Positions 32,252 to 40,913 of a DNA stretch of 43,652 bases are shown piece by piece (the first letter of the stretch is position 1; each line of letters opens with the position of its first letter). The position numbers and the translations under genes were made by a program. This stretch comes from Clostridia bacterium (GTDB taxonomy: Bacteria > Bacillota > Clostridia > Saccharofermentanales > UBA5734), in assembly GCA_009928985.1 (NCBI GenBank), contig SABL01000010.1, positions 1 through 43,652 on the forward strand. Reading direction: 5' to 3'. The notes below the pieces were generated by a model. The model did no database searches. It was not told the DNA's origin and saw only the letters and a program-made list of their open reading frames with translations.

Positions 32252-33202
32252 ATGACGAGATACATTCTGCAGCGGGCGATCGCGATGATCCTGACACTCT
32301 TCGCGATTTCAACGATCACGTTTTTCCTGATGCATGCGATCCCCGGCGGTCCATTTACCCGTGAAAAGCCCTTGGAGCCAGCGATCATAGCAGCCCTGAA
32401 CGAGAAATACCATCTCGATGATCCCTTGTTCAAACAATACACCGATTACATGGGCGATCTGATGCGTGGTGATTTCGGACCCTCGTTCAAATTCCGCGGC
32501 CGCACCGTCAATGAATTGATCGGGGCTGGATTCCCGATCACGGCCAAGATCGGAATTCTGGCCGTGCTGATCACGGTGGTCCTGAGTGTCCCGATGGGGA
32601 TCATCTCGGCCCTCAAGCAAACCAAGTGGCAGGACTATTCCTTCATGTTCCTGGCCACGCTCGGTGTCACAGTGCCGGGATTCGTCCTGGCCTCCGTCCT
32701 GATCTATGTCTTCTGCGTGCGGCTCGGCTGGTTCCCGGTTATCTGGAGCACAACCGCCACTGGCTGGCTATCCATTTCCCAGTACATCCTGCCGATGATC
32801 GCCTTGTCTGGCTACTCCATGTCGTTCATCACGCGCCTGATGCGCTCGAGCATGCTCGATGTTATCGGCCAGGACTACATCCGCACCGCCCGGGCCAAAG
32901 GGTTGTCCGAAATGCGGGTCATCATGGAGCATGCCCTGAAAAATGCCATCCTGCCAGTTGTCACCTATCTGGGTCCGACAATCGCCGCCCTGGTGACCGG
33001 CAGCTTTGTCATCGAGAAAATGTTCACCATTCCGGGTATTGGCTACCAGTACGTCGACAGCATCGGCAACCGTGACTACACCATGATCATGGGTTCCACC
33101 ATTTTTTACGCTGCCATCCTGATCATCTTGAATTTCCTGGTCGACATCATTTATGGCTTTATCGACCCGCGGATCAAGATTGGCAACATCAAGGAGGCTT
33201 GA
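32252..33202 (+). CDS. oppB: Peptide ABC transporter permease OppB
   Basis: 316 aa. Six helices with the first at 9-30 and the conserved cytoplasmic EAA-type loop DYIRTARAKGLSEMRVIMEH (about 208-227). N-terminal RYILQRAIAMILTLFAIST is the OppB signature. Forms the channel with OppC. AAGGAG is 10 bases before ATG 32252. First gene of the oppBCDF operon; the binding-protein gene is not in the operon but at 39153-40832 on the other strand. Confidence 0.95.
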   Translation: MTRYILQRAIAMILTLFAISTITFFLMHAIPGGPFTREKPLEPAIIAALNEKYHLDDPLFKQYTDYMGDLMRGDFGPSFKFRGRTVNELIGAGFPITAKIGILAVLITVVLSVPMGIISALKQTKWQDYSFMFLATLGVTVPGFVLASVLIYVFCVRLGWFPVIWSTTATGWLSISQYILPMIALSGYSMSFITRLMRSSMLDVIGQDYIRTARAKGLSEMRVIMEHALKNAILPVVTYLGPTIAALVTGSFVIEKMFTIPGIGYQYVDSIGNRDYTMIMGSTIFYAAILIILNFLVDIIYGFIDPRIKIGNIKEA

Positions 33203-33206
33203 AGCG

Positions 33207-34178
33207 ATGGAACTCAACCAGGAACTTTTCACCCCTATCCAGGAAAGCGAACGGATCAGCAGTGGCATCGTCCGGCCCAGTGTCACCTACTGGCAGGATG
33301 CCTGGCGCCGTTTCCGCCGTCACAAACCAGCCCTGATTGCAGCAGCGGTCCTGCTGGTCATCATCCTGGGCGCTATCATCATCCCGTTCTTTTACCCATA
33401 CACCTATGACCAGCAGATCCGCACAGCCCGTAACCTGTCCCCCAATCTGCAGCATCTCTTCGGCACCGACAAGCTCGGGCGCGACCTCTTCATCCGCACC
33501 GTCTATGGTGCGCGCATCTCCCTGTCAATCGGCATTGTCGCCAGCATCATCAACCTGACGATCGGCGTCATTTACGGTGGCATTTCCGGCTACATCGGCG
33601 GCAAGGTCGACAACTTCATGATGCGCATCGTCGATGTTCTCTACAGCATTCCCTTGATCCTGTACGTCATCCTGCTCAAGGTTGTCTTCCAGGATTCGAT
33701 CAAAGCCGCCTTTGAGACCACCTTCCTGCGCCACCTCAAATACCTCGGCCCGGAGCTGATCCTGATCTATGTCGTGCTCGGTTCGGTCTACTGGGTCGGC
33801 ATGGCCCGCATGGTCCGCGGCCAGGTCCTCTCAATCAAAAACAACGAATACGTCCTGGCGGCACGCTCGATGGGTGCCTCGGGCTGGCGCATCATCATGC
33901 GCCACCTCGTGCCCAACACCGTCGGCCAGATCATCGTCACCGTGACGATGTCGATCCCGGGTGCCATTTTCACCGAATCCTTCCTCAGCTTCATCGGCAT
34001 CGGTGTCTCGGCCCCGATGGCCAGCTGGGGCTCCCTGGCCAGTGATGCCTACAAGGGTCTGGCCAGTTATCCTTATCTCCTGTTTTTCCCGGCCCTGGCC
34101 ATTTCGGTTACCGTCCTGGCCTTCAACATCATGGGTGACGGCTTGCGTGACGCGCTTGACCCGCGAATGAGAAAGTGA
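33207..34178 (+). CDS. oppC: Peptide ABC transporter permease OppC
   Basis: 323 aa. N-terminal cytoplasmic segment (TYWQDAWRRFRRHKPALIAA), then six helices. HLFGTDKLGRDLFIRTVYGARISL is the OppC hallmark, and the EAA-type loop is EYVLAARSMGASGWRIIMRH. Second channel subunit. ATG 33207 has AGGAGG ten bases upstream; an in-frame ATG at 33153 lies within oppB and adds no conserved residues. Confidence 0.95.
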   Translation: MELNQELFTPIQESERISSGIVRPSVTYWQDAWRRFRRHKPALIAAAVLLVIILGAIIIPFFYPYTYDQQIRTARNLSPNLQHLFGTDKLGRDLFIRTVYGARISLSIGIVASIINLTIGVIYGGISGYIGGKVDNFMMRIVDVLYSIPLILYVILLKVVFQDSIKAAFETTFLRHLKYLGPELILIYVVLGSVYWVGMARMVRGQVLSIKNNEYVLAARSMGASGWRIIMRHLVPNTVGQIIVTVTMSIPGAIFTESFLSFIGIGVSAPMASWGSLASDAYKGLASYPYLLFFPALAISVTVLAFNIMGDGLRDALDPRMRK

Positions 34179-34188
34179 GGCAGCGCAC

Positions 34189-35268
34189 GTGAACGGCAAA
34201 TCTTTCGATACAAACCAACCTGCTGCCGATATCCTCCTGGATATCCGCCAACTTGAAACAACTTTTTTCACCCATGTCGGGCCCGTTCAAGCGGTGCGCG
34301 GCATTGACCTGGTCGTCGAACGCGGCGAAGCAGTCGGTGTTGTCGGCGAGTCCGGTTGTGGCAAAAGCGTCATGTCGATGTCAATCATGGGCCTGGTCGC
34401 CAATCCTGGCAAAATCGTCGGCGGTGAAATTTTCTTCAATGGCCAAGACCTGGCCAAGATGTCCGATAAAGAGCTCCGGAAGATCCGCGGCAATAAGGTC
34501 GCGATGATTTTCCAGGATCCCATGACCTCGCTCAATCCGGTCAAGAAAATCGGCGGCCAGATCACAGAGGTGTTGCACCTGCACCAGAACATCTCACGTG
34601 AAGACGCCCGCACGCGTGCCATCGAACTCCTTAACCTGGTCGGCATCCCCAGCCCGGAGAGCCGCCTCGACCAGTATCCCTTCGAGTTTTCCGGCGGCAT
34701 GCGCCAGCGAGTCATGATCGCCATGTCCCTGGCCTGCGACCCGGACTTGCTGATTGCCGACGAACCCACCACCGCCCTTGACGTGACCATTCAGGCCCAG
34801 ATCCTCGAACTGATGCGTGACCTCAGGAACAAGATCAACAGCTCGATCATCTTGATCACCCATGACCTCGGGGTTGTGGCCAACCTGTGCGACAGCATCC
34901 GGGTCATGTATGCTGGAAAAATTGTCGAAGAAGGCAAGACCCGCGACATCTTCTACGAACCGCGCCACCCCTATACCTGGGGTCTTCTCAATTCGATCCC
35001 CAAGATCAATGTCGAGGAAAAAGAACGCCTGATCCCGATCGATGGCCAGCCACCGGATCTTCTCAAGCCACCGGCTGGCTGCGCATTCGCGGAGCGCTGT
35101 CCACACGCCATGACGATCTGCCAGCAACAGCAGCCGCCACTGATCAAGGCGGGAGAGGGGCATGAGCATCGCGCCGCCTGCTGGCTCAATCACGCCCAGG
35201 CAGAGGCAGTTGCCGCACCGCTTTTTGCCGCCCAGACGCAGCAGGATAAATTGGAGGGGCAGGCATGA
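34189..35268 (+). CDS. oppD: Peptide ABC transporter ATPase OppD
   Basis: 359 aa. Walker A GESGCGKS (about 51-58), Q-loop [12 protein letters not shown], signature [14 protein letters not shown], Walker [15 protein letters not shown], His switch ILITHDLG. The C-terminal oligopeptide domain includes [14 protein letters not shown], where the cysteines bind an iron-sulfur cluster in some members. GTG start with TGAGG eight bases upstream. Its last four bases are the first of oppF (ATGA). Confidence 0.95.
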
Positions 35269-36302
35269 ACCAGGGGGATAAACCAGCCATGAATGAACAA
35301 GCCACGTCTGGTGCGGGCGGCCGCGAGGTCCTGCTCGAAGTCCAGAATCTCAAGAAGTATTTCCACGTCAGCCGTGGCCTCGGCCGTACGGGCAAGCTCA
35401 AAGCCGTCGATGATGTCTCTTTCCAGATTTTCAAAGGCGAGACTTTCGGTCTGGTCGGCGAATCTGGCTGTGGCAAGACCACCATCGGCCGCACGATTGC
35501 CCGCCTTTACAAACCCACAGCCGGTCTGATCAAAATCAACGGTACGGACATCGCCCACCTCAGCCAAAAGCAACTTCGGCCCTTCCGCAGGAAGATGCAG
35601 GTCATTTTCCAAGATCCCTACGCTTCGCTCAACCCCCGCATGACCGTCGGCGACATCGTCAGCGAGCCGCTCGACATCCACAAGATCGCGGTCGGACCGG
35701 AACGGCAGAAGCGGATCTATGACCTCCTGGAAAGCGTCGGCCTGACCAAGGAACACGCCAACCGTTTCCCGCATGAATTTTCCGGCGGCCAACGCCAGCG
35801 CATCGGCATTGCCCGTGCCCTTGCTTTGGAGCCCGATCTGATCATCTGCGACGAGCCAATCTCAGCCCTCGACGTCTCGATTCAGGCGCAGGTCATCAAC
35901 CTGCTCGAGGACCTGCAGAAAGACAAGGGCCTGACCTATCTGTTCATCGCCCACGACTTGTCGATGGTCCAGCACATCTCGCACCGCATCGGAGTCATGT
36001 ACCTCGGTCATCTCGTCGAGCTGGCCGAAAGCCGCACCCTCTATGATGAACCGCTGCATCCGTATACGCAGGCGCTTTTATCTGCCATTCCGGTACCAGA
36101 TCCGGACGAGACCTCGCGGCGCAAACGGATCATCCTCGAAGGCGATGTCCCGACACCGATTGATCCCCCGGCCGGCTGCCCGTTTGTCACACGCTGTCCG
36201 AAAGCGATGCCAATCTGCAAAGAAAAGCGGCCGCCGATGATCGAAACCAAGCCAGGGCATTTTGTCGCCTGTTTTGCCGTCAATGGTGAGACTGACACGT
36301 AA
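35265..36302 (+). CDS. oppF: Peptide ABC transporter ATPase OppF
   Basis: 345 aa. Walker [10 protein letters not shown] (near 65), signature [14 protein letters not shown], Walker [15 protein letters not shown], His switch [11 protein letters not shown]-terminal [14 protein letters not shown]. Second motor subunit, paired with OppD. GGAGGGG lies upstream of ATG 35265; a later ATG (35289) is possible. Last gene of the operon, closed by the hairpin at 36355. Confidence 0.95.
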
Positions 36303-36354
36303 ATAGCAGCCCGGCACAGCCTCAGGGCAGACAGATTTCACAGTCATGAACCAA

Positions 36355-36392
36355 AGACACAGCGTGCTTTATCGTCACGCTGTGTCTCTTTC
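36355..36392. terminator. Bidirectional terminator between oppF and mtnA
   Basis: AGACACAGCGTG and CACGCTGTGTCT form a perfect 12-bp stem with a 9-base loop. T-rich sequence follows on plus (CTTTCTATT), and on minus the bases after the stem are TTGG. It lies between two convergent genes. Confidence 0.8.
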
Positions 36393-36399
36393 TATTGGG

Positions 36400-37464
36400 C
36401 TAATTCTTTTTGGGTCCTGACCAAGGCTCCCGGATCTTGGCCAGATTTTCTGCGAAAGGCGGCCGGACAATCCCACGCTCGGTCACAATCGCGCTGATAT
36501 GGGCTGCCGGAGTGACATCGAAGCTTGGATTGTAGGTTTTCACCCCGGCCGGGGCAATCCGCTCGCCGTTGATCATCGTGATTTCCTCACCACTGCGTTC
36601 CTCGATCGGGATGTCATGGCCGGACGGGCAATCCCAGTCGATGGTTGGCGTCGGGGCAGCGATGTAAAAAGGTATATTGAAATGCCTGGCCAGGATGGAG
36701 AGGCCGAACGTGCCGATTTTATTAGCCGTATCACCATTAGCAGCAATCCGGTCACAGCCGACGATGACAGCCTGGATTTTGGCCTGAGACATGACGACGG
36801 CAGCCATATTGTCACTGACCAGGGTGGCGTCGATGCCGGACTGCACCAGCTCAAATGCGGTCAGCCGGGCACCCTGCAGACGAGGCCGTGTTTCATCGAT
36901 AAAGGCTTTCAGCTCAATGCCCTGTTCCAGGGCAACAAAAAAGACTGACAGGGCGGTGCCATATCCTGCTGTGGCAAGAGCACCGGCATTGCAGTGGGTC
37001 AGGATCGTATCGCCTGGCTGGACCAGTGAGAGCAGGTTGGAACCGATCGCCCGGTTGATGGCAATATCCTCCTGATGGATGGCGATCGCTTCTTGTTCGA
37101 GTTCGGTCAGGATAAAATCGACTGGCAGCTCGCTGCAGGCGCGAGACTTGGCCAGCATGCGGTCGATCGCCCAGCTGAGATTGACCGCTGTCGGCCGGGA
37201 CAGGGCCAGCATGTGTCCGGCGCTGTCCAATGCAGCATAGAAGGCAGGGAAGCCGTCTGAGGGCGCTTGCCGGGCAGCCAGGGCCATGCCATAGGCTGCC
37301 GCCACTCCAATCGCCGGTGCCCCGCGGACAACCATGTCTCGGATGGCATCACGTACTTGCTCAACAGTGCCAAGCACCCGGTATGTGATTTGGCCGGGCA
37401 ACAAGGTCTGGTCCAGCAAGACCAGCACCCCATCCTGCCATTCCAAAGATGTAACAGAATCCAT
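36400..37464 (-). CDS. mtnA: S-methyl-5-thioribose-1-phosphate isomerase
   Basis: 354 aa. Converts methylthioribose 1-phosphate to methylthioribulose 1-phosphate in methionine salvage. RGAPAIGVAAAYG (near 50) and the catalytic cysteine in THCNAGALATAGYGTAL are family hallmarks; VGCDRIAANGDTANKIGT holds the catalytic Asp. ATG 37464 is chosen since AGGAGG is eight bases upstream, although the frame is open to 37614. No other methionine-salvage gene is near, so related 5-deoxyribose-1-phosphate isomerase activity cannot be excluded. Flanked by peptide-transport genes but on the other strand to oppBCDF. Confidence 0.9.
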   Translation of the reverse strand: MDSVTSLEWQDGVLVLLDQTLLPGQITYRVLGTVEQVRDAIRDMVVRGAPAIGVAAAYGMALAARQAPSDGFPAFYAALDSAGHMLALSRPTAVNLSWAIDRMLAKSRACSELPVDFILTELEQEAIAIHQEDIAINRAIGSNLLSLVQPGDTILTHCNAGALATAGYGTALSVFFVALEQGIELKAFIDETRPRLQGARLTAFELVQSGIDATLVSDNMAAVVMSQAKIQAVIVGCDRIAANGDTANKIGTFGLSILARHFNIPFYIAAPTPTIDWDCPSGHDIPIEERSGEEITMINGERIAPAGVKTYNPSFDVTPAAHISAIVTERGIVRPPFAENLAKIREPWSGPKKN

Positions 37465-37546
37465 GGTCTTGTCCTCCTGCTTCTCTCTCAATCGGAAAGG
37501 GAATGGCATGATTGTACCCTTTCGCCAAGAGAACCAAAAGGGGGAT

Positions 37547-38938
37547 TCAGGGTTGCTGAAGAACCTGCTTGATGAATATTTCAGCCAGTTCGGAGTCAAA
37601 CTGTCTTCCGGCATTGCGACGGATTTCGGCGATGGCCTGATCGACAGTCATTTTTTCCTGATCGTTGTTCCTTTGTGTCATTGCATCATAACACTCTGCC
37701 AGGGCAATGATTTTAGCGATTAAAGGAATATCTTGGTCGGAAATTCCTTTCGGGTAACCGGATCCATCGATATATTCGTGATGACTCAGAATTGCGTATC
37801 CGATATCATGCCATTCGTGGGTTTTTCCGATTATTTGGGAGCCGATCATCACATGTTTCTGGACTTCTCTGACCTCCTCCTCGGTTAATGCATCAGATTT
37901 CTCCAGGATTTGCGTGCTGATGGCAATTTTGCCAATGTCATGCAAAAATCCAGCCAAAGCGATTCGTTCAACCAGATCCTGATCAAAACCCAAGACCACT
38001 GCCATCTGTTTGCAGAGCTGTTGCACCCGTTTGGCATGTTGTGATTCAACCGCTGATTTCTCAAAAAGCATCCTTATGATCCAATCAATGAAATCTTTCC
38101 GGGACCTTTCACAAGTTGCCTTGGATCGATACATGTTTTTTTCAGCTTTCACGATAATCCCACTCAAATTATCACCAGGCAGAGATTTTGTTGCCAGACC
38201 AAATGCGATGCTCACTGGAATACCGTTGACCTGCTGCTTCTTTTTGCTCATGATAATCCGGCTGACTATTTTCCTGGCATCGATCTGACTGGTTTTGGGG
38301 AGCAGGATGACAAATTCGTCACCACCCCAACGTGCGATGATATCATCGGGACGACACTCTGTCCGGATGATATCTGATGCCATACGAATGTACTCATCGC
38401 CCTTTTCATGGCCAAAGATGTCATTCATCAATTTGAGGCGATTCATGTCACCCATGATGATCGAGATGGGCAAGTTTCTGGCCGTATCCATCCGTCTGAT
38501 TTCTTCTTCACAGAAGCGACGATTGTAAAGACCGGTTAAGGTATCGTGATAACTTAAATATTCAATTTTCTGTTGATAGGAGATCCGGTCCGAAACATCC
38601 CGGGCAACGCAGTAATAATGGTCGTGGTAAAGGCGGGTATTCCATTCCAGATAGCGGTAGGAACCGTCCTTATGCCGGAAGCGGTTGATGTATTGATTGA
38701 ATTCAGTGTGCAGCCCTTCATCCAGAATCTCGTGAAGGGTCTGATCCAGTTTGCCGGCATCATCTGGGTGAATATATTGCGTGGGATAGGTGCCTTCGAT
38801 TTCGGCAGGCTCATATCCAAGGATACTTTTACTGGCACGGTTGACTTTGAGAAGAAATCCATCCACCCGAGTGATGCAAATCATATCTGGCGCTGTATCG
38901 AAGAGTTGATTTAAAATATCGGGCCCGAGTGCTTCCAT
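37547..38938 (-). CDS. PAS - GGDEF - HD-GYP cyclic-di-GMP turnover protein
   Basis: 463 aa, cytoplasmic, no membrane helix. PAS sensor (about 6-125: FDTAPDMICITRVDGFLLKVN, then RFRHKDGSYRYLEWN). GGDEF diguanylate cyclase (about 130-285) with an intact RWGGDEF active site. HD-GYP phosphodiesterase (about 300-463) with HDIGK and HHEYIDGSGYP. So both synthesis and degradation sites are intact in one chain. Base composition is noticeably A+T-richer than its neighbours, and its upstream region is A+T rich, which hints at a different history. ATG 38938 is chosen; a TTG at 38959 is the alternative. mtnA starts 82 bases downstream on the same strand. Confidence 0.93.
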   Translation of the reverse strand: MEALGPDILNQLFDTAPDMICITRVDGFLLKVNRASKSILGYEPAEIEGTYPTQYIHPDDAGKLDQTLHEILDEGLHTEFNQYINRFRHKDGSYRYLEWNTRLYHDHYYCVARDVSDRISYQQKIEYLSYHDTLTGLYNRRFCEEEIRRMDTARNLPISIIMGDMNRLKLMNDIFGHEKGDEYIRMASDIIRTECRPDDIIARWGGDEFVILLPKTSQIDARKIVSRIIMSKKKQQVNGIPVSIAFGLATKSLPGDNLSGIIVKAEKNMYRSKATCERSRKDFIDWIIRMLFEKSAVESQHAKRVQQLCKQMAVVLGFDQDLVERIALAGFLHDIGKIAISTQILEKSDALTEEEVREVQKHVMIGSQIIGKTHEWHDIGYAILSHHEYIDGSGYPKGISDQDIPLIAKIIALAECYDAMTQRNNDQEKMTVDQAIAEIRRNAGRQFDSELAEIFIKQVLQQP

Positions 38939-38983
38939 AGTTTTATCTTTCTCTGCCAATTGTATTTGTTTTCTTATGACCCG

Positions 38984-39018
38984 ATTATATAATATTTGCC
39001 ATAATGATGCATTGTCTA
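38984..39018 (-). promoter_or_regulatory. Promoter of the GGDEF/HD-GYP gene
   Basis: On the minus strand TAGACA (39018-39013), an 18-base spacer and TATTAT (38994-38989); a perfect TATAAT overlaps at 38989-38984. A+T-rich region about 100 bases long. Confidence 0.5.
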
Positions 39019-39054
39019 TTTATTACATTTTAATTAGATGCATTTAAATAGATC

Positions 39055-39083
39055 AAAAAAAGACCGCCTCAATTGAGGCGGTC
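39055..39083 (-). terminator. oppA terminator
   Basis: On the minus strand GACCGCCTC-AATT-GAGGCGGTC (9-bp stem, 39083-39062) is followed by seven T. It lies about 70 bases after the oppA stop. Confidence 0.95.
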
Positions 39084-39152
39084 CCTGACTTGGTTTCTCT
39101 GAATCTAATTGAATTTTCTGGTGTGGATTCGCTTGACTGGATCTGGTCCAGT

Positions 39153-40832
39153 TTACGGAACCTTGTAGCCGATTTCGTTGATCAGGGCTTTGGCTTCTGC
39201 AACGTCAGCAGCATAGTCGCCACTGCCGAAGTAGTTGCCACCGTTTTCACGGAAGTCGCCGCCATCTGCATCAGCCATGCCGTTCGGGACGAACGCATAA
39301 GCCGGCAGGGCATTGTTCTGGGCGACTTCGATGACATAGTCGCGGTCGATGGCCAAGGCGAGTGCTTTTCTGAACTTCGGATCCTGGAGGATCTCGGGAT
39401 TGCCTTCACGCGGCTGGACTTCAACACTGAAGAAATAGGTGCCGATGATCGGCTCGACATTGTACTGTCCAGCTGCCTTCATGGCGTCGGTTTCCTCGGC
39501 CGGGAAGGATTCGGCGATATCGAGCTCACCCGTCTTGAAAGCAGACAAGGCGGATGCATCATCATCGGTCAGTTTGAAGATCAGCTTGGTGCCAGGCAGG
39601 TTGGCCGCATCAAAGTACTTGTCATTCTTTTCCATGACGATTTCGTTTTTGATTTCGAACTTGGTCAGCTTGTACGGACCGTTGGAAATCAGAGTCTTGG
39701 GATCGTTGGCCCAGGCATCCGGATTCTTGGCGACGACGTCTTCACGGACCGGGTAGAGGGTCGGGAAAGCGGTCAGCTGGGTGAAGTACGGGGTGGCAGC
39801 CTCGAGGGTGACTTCGAGGGTCTTGTCGTCGATGGCTTTGACACCGAGTTCTTCGACACCGAGCTCACCGGCATTGATCTTGGCTGCGTTCTTGACGTAG
39901 TAGACCTGATAGGCGTACTCAGAACCGGTGGCCGGGTCGAGAGCGCGTTTCCAGGCATAGATGAAGTCGTTGGCGGTGACGGGTTTGCCATCCGTCCAGA
40001 CTGCGTCATCACGCAGGTGGAAGGTCCAGGTCAGGCCGTCTTCGCTGATGTCCCATTTCTCGGCGACGCCGGGGACGATCTCGTTCTTTTCATTCTTCGT
40101 GGTCAGGCCAACAAAGAGGTGCTGGATCGTGACCGCGCCGTCAGTAGCGTTATTGAGTTGTGGGTCCAGGGTGGCCGGGGTGGCGCCGAGATGGTAGTTG
40201 ATCGGCTCGCCGCCGTCCTTGGTGGCCCAGGTGAACATCATGTGGCCGAGCAGGGCGTCATGAACGTAGTTCTTGACTTTGCCGTTGTCGAGCCAGACGT
40301 TGGTGTAATAGTAGACCGGAATGATCGGCAGTTCTTCCATCAGGATCTTTTCGGCGTCATGCATGGCCTGCATGCGGACAGCCGGATCATTGGAAGACTT
40401 GGCGGTGGCAATGAGGGCATCAAATTCGGGGTTTTTCCAGTCGGCGTCGTTCTGGCCGCTCTCAGATACCCACATGTCAAGGAAGGTCATCGGATCGGTG
40501 TAGTCACCGAGCCAGCCATGGCGGGCGATCTGGTAATCACCGTTGTTACGGGTTTCCTGGAAGACGGCCCATTCCGAGTTCTCCAGAGTGACATCGAGGC
40601 CGAGGGATTCTTTCCACATGGCCTGGACAGCTTCTGCGATGAGCTGGTGGCCCGTGCTGGTGTTGTAGATCAATTTGAGTGAGGGTAAATCCTTGAGTGG
40701 GGCAGTGGTTGCGGCAGTGGTCTCGCCAGCAGCTGCGGTTGTGGCAGCAGTGGTGGCCTGGCCTCCGCAGGCGGTGGCCATCAAGACCAGGGCAAGCAAC
40801 AGGCTCATGATCGTAATCAGACGTTTGTTCAT
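39153..40832 (-). CDS. oppA: Oligopeptide-binding lipoprotein OppA, circularly permuted
   Basis: 559 aa. Lipoprotein signal with Cys22 (LVLMATAC), then a Thr/Ala-rich tether to about residue 46. Residues 48-206 match the usual C-terminal part of family 5 binding proteins: LKLIYNTSTGHQLIAEAVQ, ARHGWLGDYTDPMTFLDMW, ELPIIPVYYYTNVWL. Residues 208-559 match the usual N-terminal part and centre: LGATPATLDPQLNNATDGA, GVAEKWDISEDGLTWTFHLR, VTANDFIYAWKRALDP, AIDRDYVIEVAQ, VPNGMADADGGDFREN, AKALINEIGYKVP. In ordinary OppA, GYxxx is followed directly by the LYNTS segment. Total length is normal. ATG 40832 has AGGAGG upstream. Likely peptide receptor for oppBCDF. Confidence 0.93.
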   Translation of the reverse strand: MNKRLITIMSLLLALVLMATACGGQATTAATTAAAGETTAATTAPLKDLPSLKLIYNTSTGHQLIAEAVQAMWKESLGLDVTLENSEWAVFQETRNNGDYQIARHGWLGDYTDPMTFLDMWVSESGQNDADWKNPEFDALIATAKSSNDPAVRMQAMHDAEKILMEELPIIPVYYYTNVWLDNGKVKNYVHDALLGHMMFTWATKDGGEPINYHLGATPATLDPQLNNATDGAVTIQHLFVGLTTKNEKNEIVPGVAEKWDISEDGLTWTFHLRDDAVWTDGKPVTANDFIYAWKRALDPATGSEYAYQVYYVKNAAKINAGELGVEELGVKAIDDKTLEVTLEAATPYFTQLTAFPTLYPVREDVVAKNPDAWANDPKTLISNGPYKLTKFEIKNEIVMEKNDKYFDAANLPGTKLIFKLTDDDASALSAFKTGELDIAESFPAEETDAMKAAGQYNVEPIIGTYFFSVEVQPREGNPEILQDPKFRKALALAIDRDYVIEVAQNNALPAYAFVPNGMADADGGDFRENGGNYFGSGDYAADVAEAKALINEIGYKVP

Positions 40833-40913
40833 GGTGCTTCCTCCTTGAGTTCTGTGACGATGATGGCGCGATGACAATTGTTTACCAAAAGCCCCCGCGC
40901 CACTCAATCTTGA

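Follow-up and report, generated by a model that had tools for sequence, protein, structure and literature searches.

We identified an OppA-type oligopeptide receptor, here called cpOppA, whose chain runs in circularly permuted order. The permutation is real and fixed in its lineage, and some ten separate permutations, at four cut sites, have very probably occurred in the wider OppA receptor family across Bacillota and Chloroflexota. The gene lies on a Clostridia bacterium contig (SABL01000010.1), of which a stretch of 43,652 nucleotides, hereafter the window, was analyzed (Table 1). An earlier note, made from the sequence alone, had proposed the permutation without naming a strand; the open reading frame is on the minus strand. 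The same note placed the motif GATPATLDPQ slightly off, at residue 208; it starts at residue 216. The lipobox is weak, with Ala at position -3, and relatives have LLATAC and FVMTAC. Residues 47-206 comprise part of lobe III and the last lobe I strand, and residues 211-559 comprise the start of lobe I, lobe II, the remaining lobe I and the first part of lobe III.

Table 1. Features of the cpOppA locus and the neighboring opp genes (window coordinates)
Feature	Coordinates	Strand	Details and basis
oppB permease	32252..33202	plus	
oppC permease	33153..34178	plus	
oppD ATPase	34189..35268	plus	
oppF ATPase	35265..36302	plus	
Intrinsic terminator-like hairpin after cpOppA	39059..39086	minus	12 pairs, then Ts
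cpOppA gene, OppA/SBP_bac_5 lipoprotein in circularly permuted order	39153..40832	minus	559 aa + stop; ATG start at 40832, stop at 39153
Second segment (residues 211-559), N-terminal in normal OppA	39156..40202	minus	aligns to 8are 18-345
GGEP link (residues 207-210), native C-terminus onto native N-terminus	40203..40214	minus	sequence
First segment (residues 47-206), C-terminal in normal OppA	40215..40694	minus	alignments to 8are 365-510 and 8ay0 364-520
Asp110 codon, in GWLGDYTDP	40503..40505	minus	alignment; taken as equivalent of Salmonella OppA Asp419
Ala/Thr-rich tether (residues 23-46), disordered	40695..40766	minus	pLDDT <50 over residues 1-42
Signal peptide and lipobox (residues 1-22, ...LMATAC)	40767..40832	minus	Cys22 by inspection
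Shine-Dalgarno-like AGGAGG for the cpOppA ATG	40840..40845	minus	read in sequence

Searches of cpOppA against solved OppA structures, with which the earlier note had suggested aligning the two segments, showed a crossed order. Residues 207-539 matched residues 18-345 of the B. subtilis OppA chain (8are; 215 bits) and residues 46-190 matched residues 365-510 of that chain (142 bits); DppE (8ay0) and Salmonella OppA (1b05) were crossed in the same way. The sole Pfam match was PF00496 (SBP_bac_5), in two stretches and at 288 bits against a gathering cut-off of 32.4, and both the N and the C part are homologous to SBP_bac_5/Cluster C receptors. The NCBIfam OppA equivalog NF011684 scored 330.9 bits, below its curated cut-off of 947. 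Identity to the normal-order sister protein L123 was 64% for residues 47-206 (L123 residues 407-562) and 55% for residues 208-559 (L123 residues 58-400). Alignment to a doubled L123 raised the score from 981 to 1522, the largest gain in 50 shuffles being 5, and this control ruled out chance similarity behind the crossed alignment.

The native C-terminus reads ATKE-stop in L123 (...LYATKE-stop) and ATKD in cpOppA, where it passes via GGEP directly into the native N-terminal strand. The mature part of L123 starts ...NKPITYNMGANPKTLDPQLNN, and cpOppA across the native join reads ...TWATKDGGEPINYHLGATPATLDPQLNN; therefore, the native ends have been fused with almost nothing lost. The new termini divide the GYxxGxxFP/LxLLYNTS loop (...NEIGYKVP-stop and ...LKDLPSLKLIYNTS). 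No segment was lost or duplicated, and the length is as in OppA. The protein thus fails the canonical OppA topology, in which lobe I strands stand at both chain ends, because its order is rotated. The claim of a circular permutation held on the crossed alignments, the doubled-sister score and the order in relatives.

The cpOppA order was also found in five further species-level assemblies (G001-G005), and the assemblies sharing it stem from several separate MAG projects. Four of the five (G001-G004), from the same genus as the window, were 86-98% identical to cpOppA with the same order and seams; the fifth (G005), from the sister genus, was 77% identical and had the same order, its contig beginning within the first segment. 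No assembly of the cpOppA lineage showed the normal OppA order. In this survey of homologues the permuted order was kept, and neither of the outcomes that the earlier note had named as refuting it, a misassembly at the seams or a normal order among close homologues, was met. The host assembly consists of 433 contigs with an estimated contamination of 7.7%, and the locus was found again in better assemblies. The dN/dS values of cpOppA against its lineage relatives were 0.026-0.164 over both core segments, indicating purifying selection on the gene.

We then considered the fold of the whole chain, which the earlier note had proposed to predict. AlphaFold2, given an alignment of permuted proteins together with separate N and C pieces from normal ones, returned a confident model (pLDDT 85.6, pTM 0.76) whose confidence dropped only over residues 1-42. 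Residues 205-559 of the model superposed on OppA/DppE chains with Z ~32, and on open DppE at 2.1 A over 343 residues. Foldseek and VIA-align placed only this part, since both aligners follow chain order and omit the moved segment. The placement of the moved segment in the three-lobe fold is thus a prediction of the model, resting on model confidence and sequence homology and not on structural superposition.

cpOppA is very likely a working receptor for the neighboring OppBCDF, with a normal fold, a retained ligand pocket and relocated termini, a reading made without data on binding, transport or expression. The oppBCDF genes of the window (32252-36302) lie ~3 kb away, are convergent with cpOppA and do not form one transcript with it. 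They are found near cpOppA throughout the window clade wherever the contig extends that far, and in G004 and G005 (L257, L258) the permuted gene adjoins oppF directly, again convergently. Nearly all permuted genes whose surroundings were read adjoin oppBCDF, upstream, downstream, divergently or convergently, which supports a receptor role for all cut types; at L283, oppBC passed the filter and no OppA match did. Other OppA matches in the host genome were weak, partial or distant, leaving cpOppA as the only close one. The GWxxDYxD/E motif with its Asp was kept in 54 of the 55 permuted ORF rows checked. In Salmonella OppA, Asp419 binds the peptide N-terminus, and we take Asp110 of cpOppA to be its equivalent by alignment. 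Normal peptide binding and delivery by cpOppA are inferred, without protein data.

Some features of the neighborhood were observed in passing. In the window clade, cpOppA is inverted relative to oppBCDF, and in the normal-order sister L261 both run in one direction; the inversion and the permutation map to the same branch (window, L256-L258, L261). Between oppBCDF and cpOppA in the window (36302-39153) lie mtnA and a GGDEF/HD gene. The latter encodes a PAS-GGDEF-HD protein (37547-38959, minus strand) between mtnA and cpOppA; no such gene was seen next to the permuted gene of G001 or of G004.

We surveyed other genomes for permuted OppA genes with a profile (A1) built from the contiguous C-to-N stretch of the permuted gene and read against whole genomes. 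Permuted genes matched from profile position 1-5, and normal ones mostly from 69-82. The cut position of each ORF was found by alignment to a doubled normal reference, and the sites were numbered on the mature form (513 aa) of the normal-order protein L040. The Bacillota samples showed three sites. Site A (~351/354) occurred in the window genus, its sister genus and families f40, f63, f135, f178 and f197; site B (~267/274), just past the hinge strand, in genus g3 of the window's family and in f50, f60, f83 and f127; and site C (~438) in f3, f4, f5 and f84. Profile A1 could reveal only cuts in the A/B/C region, and the survey was rerun with a profile centered on the native join (A5). In the class (291 genomes), A5 gave permuted genes 148-180 bits and half matches of normal genes no more than 85, and 398 genomes of the phylum yielded eleven permuted genes, including the window's. 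Profile A5 revealed no cut sites beyond A, B and C in the Bacillota samples.

A fourth site, D (~90-126), was found in Chloroflexota: seven or more of the sampled genomes have it, as does the cultured isolate Thermanaerothrix daxensis GNS-1; one Chloroflexota genome carried an independent site A. Both native ends of family 5 receptors lie in lobe I. By homology to the lobe limits of Salmonella OppA, we take sites A, B and C to be in lobe III and site D in lobe II, and a rule that all cuts fall in lobe III was dropped once site D had been found. In 96 Verrucomicrobiota genomes there was no full-junction match above threshold. Altogether, ~45 genomes in Bacillota and Chloroflexota carried a permuted OppA, some of them single-contig genomes.

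The number of origins was assessed on trees. Solely for the alignment, every sequence was first rotated in silico into normal order. A quick initial tree (94 rows) gave eight changes of order. The careful tree, with 64 rows and Chloroflexota added, gave ten, each forced by supported branches: four at site A, four at site B, one at C and one at D. The window's A clade was sister to the normal-order proteins L123 and L040 with full support. AU tests rejected a single clade of all A rows (p = 1e-70) and a single clade of all B rows (p = 7e-6). Change counts on the tree do not separate gain from reversal, and the normal order was the common state throughout. The tree groups were named after the order data were known and before the tree was known.

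The permuted receptors were compared with known systems. The Cluster C receptors OppA and DppE (8are, 8ay0, 1b05) resemble cpOppA in their homology over both segments, length, ligand Asp motif, position near oppBCDF and lipoprotein signal; cpOppA differs in its rotated chain order and in having both termini within the lobe III loop GYxxP/LYNTS. The 60 best PDB matches of the junction profile included no permuted chain. A permuted receptor itself has precedent in T. pallidum MglB-2 (Tp0684), a Cluster B glucose receptor with a solved structure and demonstrated glucose binding, for which its authors proposed a separate sub-class, 'Type Ic / Cluster Bc', and a tethering hypothesis (PMC4990184). 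Like cpOppA, MglB-2 is a natural permutant and a tethered ABC-importer receptor; it has the fold of its unpermuted relatives, as is predicted for cpOppA, and permuted receptors of its type also occur in Gram-positives (PMC4990184). Unlike cpOppA, it belongs to the Cluster B sugar class, has one described topology, and its permuted part matches poorly; in the permuted OppAs both segments match clearly, and the cuts fall at four sites and recur. cpOppA has no Cluster B sugar-receptor homology, PF00496 being its only Pfam match.

Natural circular permutations are also known in saposin/swaposin, DNA methyltransferases and transhydrogenases (PMC3320104). These share with cpOppA the kind of rearrangement and the same duplication-trim or fission-fusion models, whereas the permuted OppAs add recurrence at the same sites within one family and close unpermuted sisters. 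In the open-access literature searched, we found no report of a permuted OppA or any other permuted Cluster C receptor, and none of a receptor family permuted more than once. Within that literature, the earlier note's statement that no permuted OppA had been described held, with the permuted Cluster B receptor TpMglB-2 already known (PMC4990184). The recurrence of permutation within one receptor family is therefore probably new. Natural permutation has usually been shown through single old protein pairs; in the OppA family, permuted proteins have close unpermuted relatives, the events are many and apparently independent, and cut sites are reused, so that the origin of permutants and the preference for sites become directly testable. 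Because each half matches the family, permuted OppAs can escape annotation and domain-order pipelines.

As for the origin of cpOppA, we propose that oppA was duplicated in tandem, that the copies fused in frame and that both ends were then trimmed. In the permuted chain, a link of four residues joins the native ends, which both lie in lobe I, and the new opening falls within the lobe III loop GYxxP/LYNTS; the signal peptide, lipid anchor and tether therefore enter at lobe III. The duplication route is likely, though inferred, and no intermediate was found; it is favored because the leading signal peptide is kept, the native join is tight and tandem oppA copies are common. The earlier note had suggested that an anchor at lobe III could alter docking on OppBC, which remains an inference. 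In E. coli Dpp, a scoop motif of the B permease touches both receptor lobes during peptide release (PMC12136057). A moved tether could in principle affect this step, given that contact; the possibility rests on analogy, without data.

Several other explanations were weighed. A chimeric or circularly misjoined contig could have given cpOppA a false segment order, and the fragmentation of the host assembly (433 contigs, 7.7% contamination) speaks for this. However, five other species-level assemblies share the order, permuted genes from other clades stand in single-contig genomes (G512, G223, G748), and the ORF is intact, with signal peptide, Shine-Dalgarno sequence, stop and codons under purifying selection. 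Misassembly was rejected on the independent assemblies and retains practically no room. cpOppA might instead be a permuted relic that no longer serves as an Opp receptor, as some permuted genes elsewhere appear damaged. Against this stand its dN/dS of ~0.03-0.16 across both segments, its retained ligand Asp, the lack of another close OppA match in the host genome and the nearby oppBCDF genes, present throughout the clade on contigs that extend far enough, and we regard a relic as very improbable. Also remote is the view that every cut type had a single ancient origin followed by loss or by spread through transfer, which would make the recurrence over-counted. The patchy occurrence of permuted genes speaks for it, as does the ability of oppABCDF clusters to pass from one species to another. 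Transfer, however, would hold same-type genes together, whereas groups of types A and B branch within different sets of normal-order relatives and the AU test rejected a one-clade A (p = 1e-70) and a one-clade B (p = 7e-6). A single origin was thus rejected for cut type A and for cut type B.

The route and the cause of the permutation have rivals of their own. Two half genes might have split and re-fused in the other order; fission-fusion, like duplication-trim, is an accepted model of permutation (PMC3320104), and no fused-dimer intermediate was found in this survey. Yet the signal peptide is still in front, native end meets native end with few residues between, as duplication and trimming predict, relatives often carry normal-order oppA in tandem copies (L042, L051, L052, L053, L074), and no split OppA gene was recognized; we therefore consider fission and re-fusion unlikely and prefer duplication and trimming. 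The permutation might also be adaptive, selection having repeatedly moved the N-terminus, with its anchor and tether, off lobe I and so altered the way in which the receptor is held, or its presentation to the permease. In favor are the independent events repeated at A and B, in lobe III by homology to Salmonella OppA, and the tethering adaptation proposed by the TpMglB-2 authors (PMC4990184). Against it, the permuted proteins of f135 and f197 are not lipid-anchored (signal peptide, no lipobox Cys), so anchoring cannot be the whole reason; site D is in lobe II; and the recurrent sites may just mark end-tolerant loops, as normal OppAs with an insert at site C suggest. We thus doubt an adaptive cause. 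A bolder reading, that peptide receptors of ABC importers converge on permutation at a few fixed sites because a shift of the N-terminal anchor or the free ends into lobe III (or II) is repeatedly selected, also seems improbable; if true, chain topology would be an evolvable setting of receptor-permease coupling.

Individual proteins showed further variation. Three normal-order OppAs (L020, L022, L024) carry an insert of ~25 residues where type C proteins are cut, and this loop possibly tolerates both insertions and ends. The f135 and f197 proteins with a signal peptide and no lipobox Cys are L169-L175, and L250 has a twin-arginine-like motif instead. Some permuted genes appear damaged, with a frameshift in L012 (G006), an in-frame TGA in L177 (G923), a diverged C-terminal end in L107 (G081) and an internal deletion in L178 (G082). 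In one Chloroflexota genome (G1039; L251:2155-4488), a site-D receptor is fused, within one ORF, behind an apparent branched-chain amino-acid type receptor domain, and a similar long ORF (G1168:C170; 960 aa) has a full junction match.
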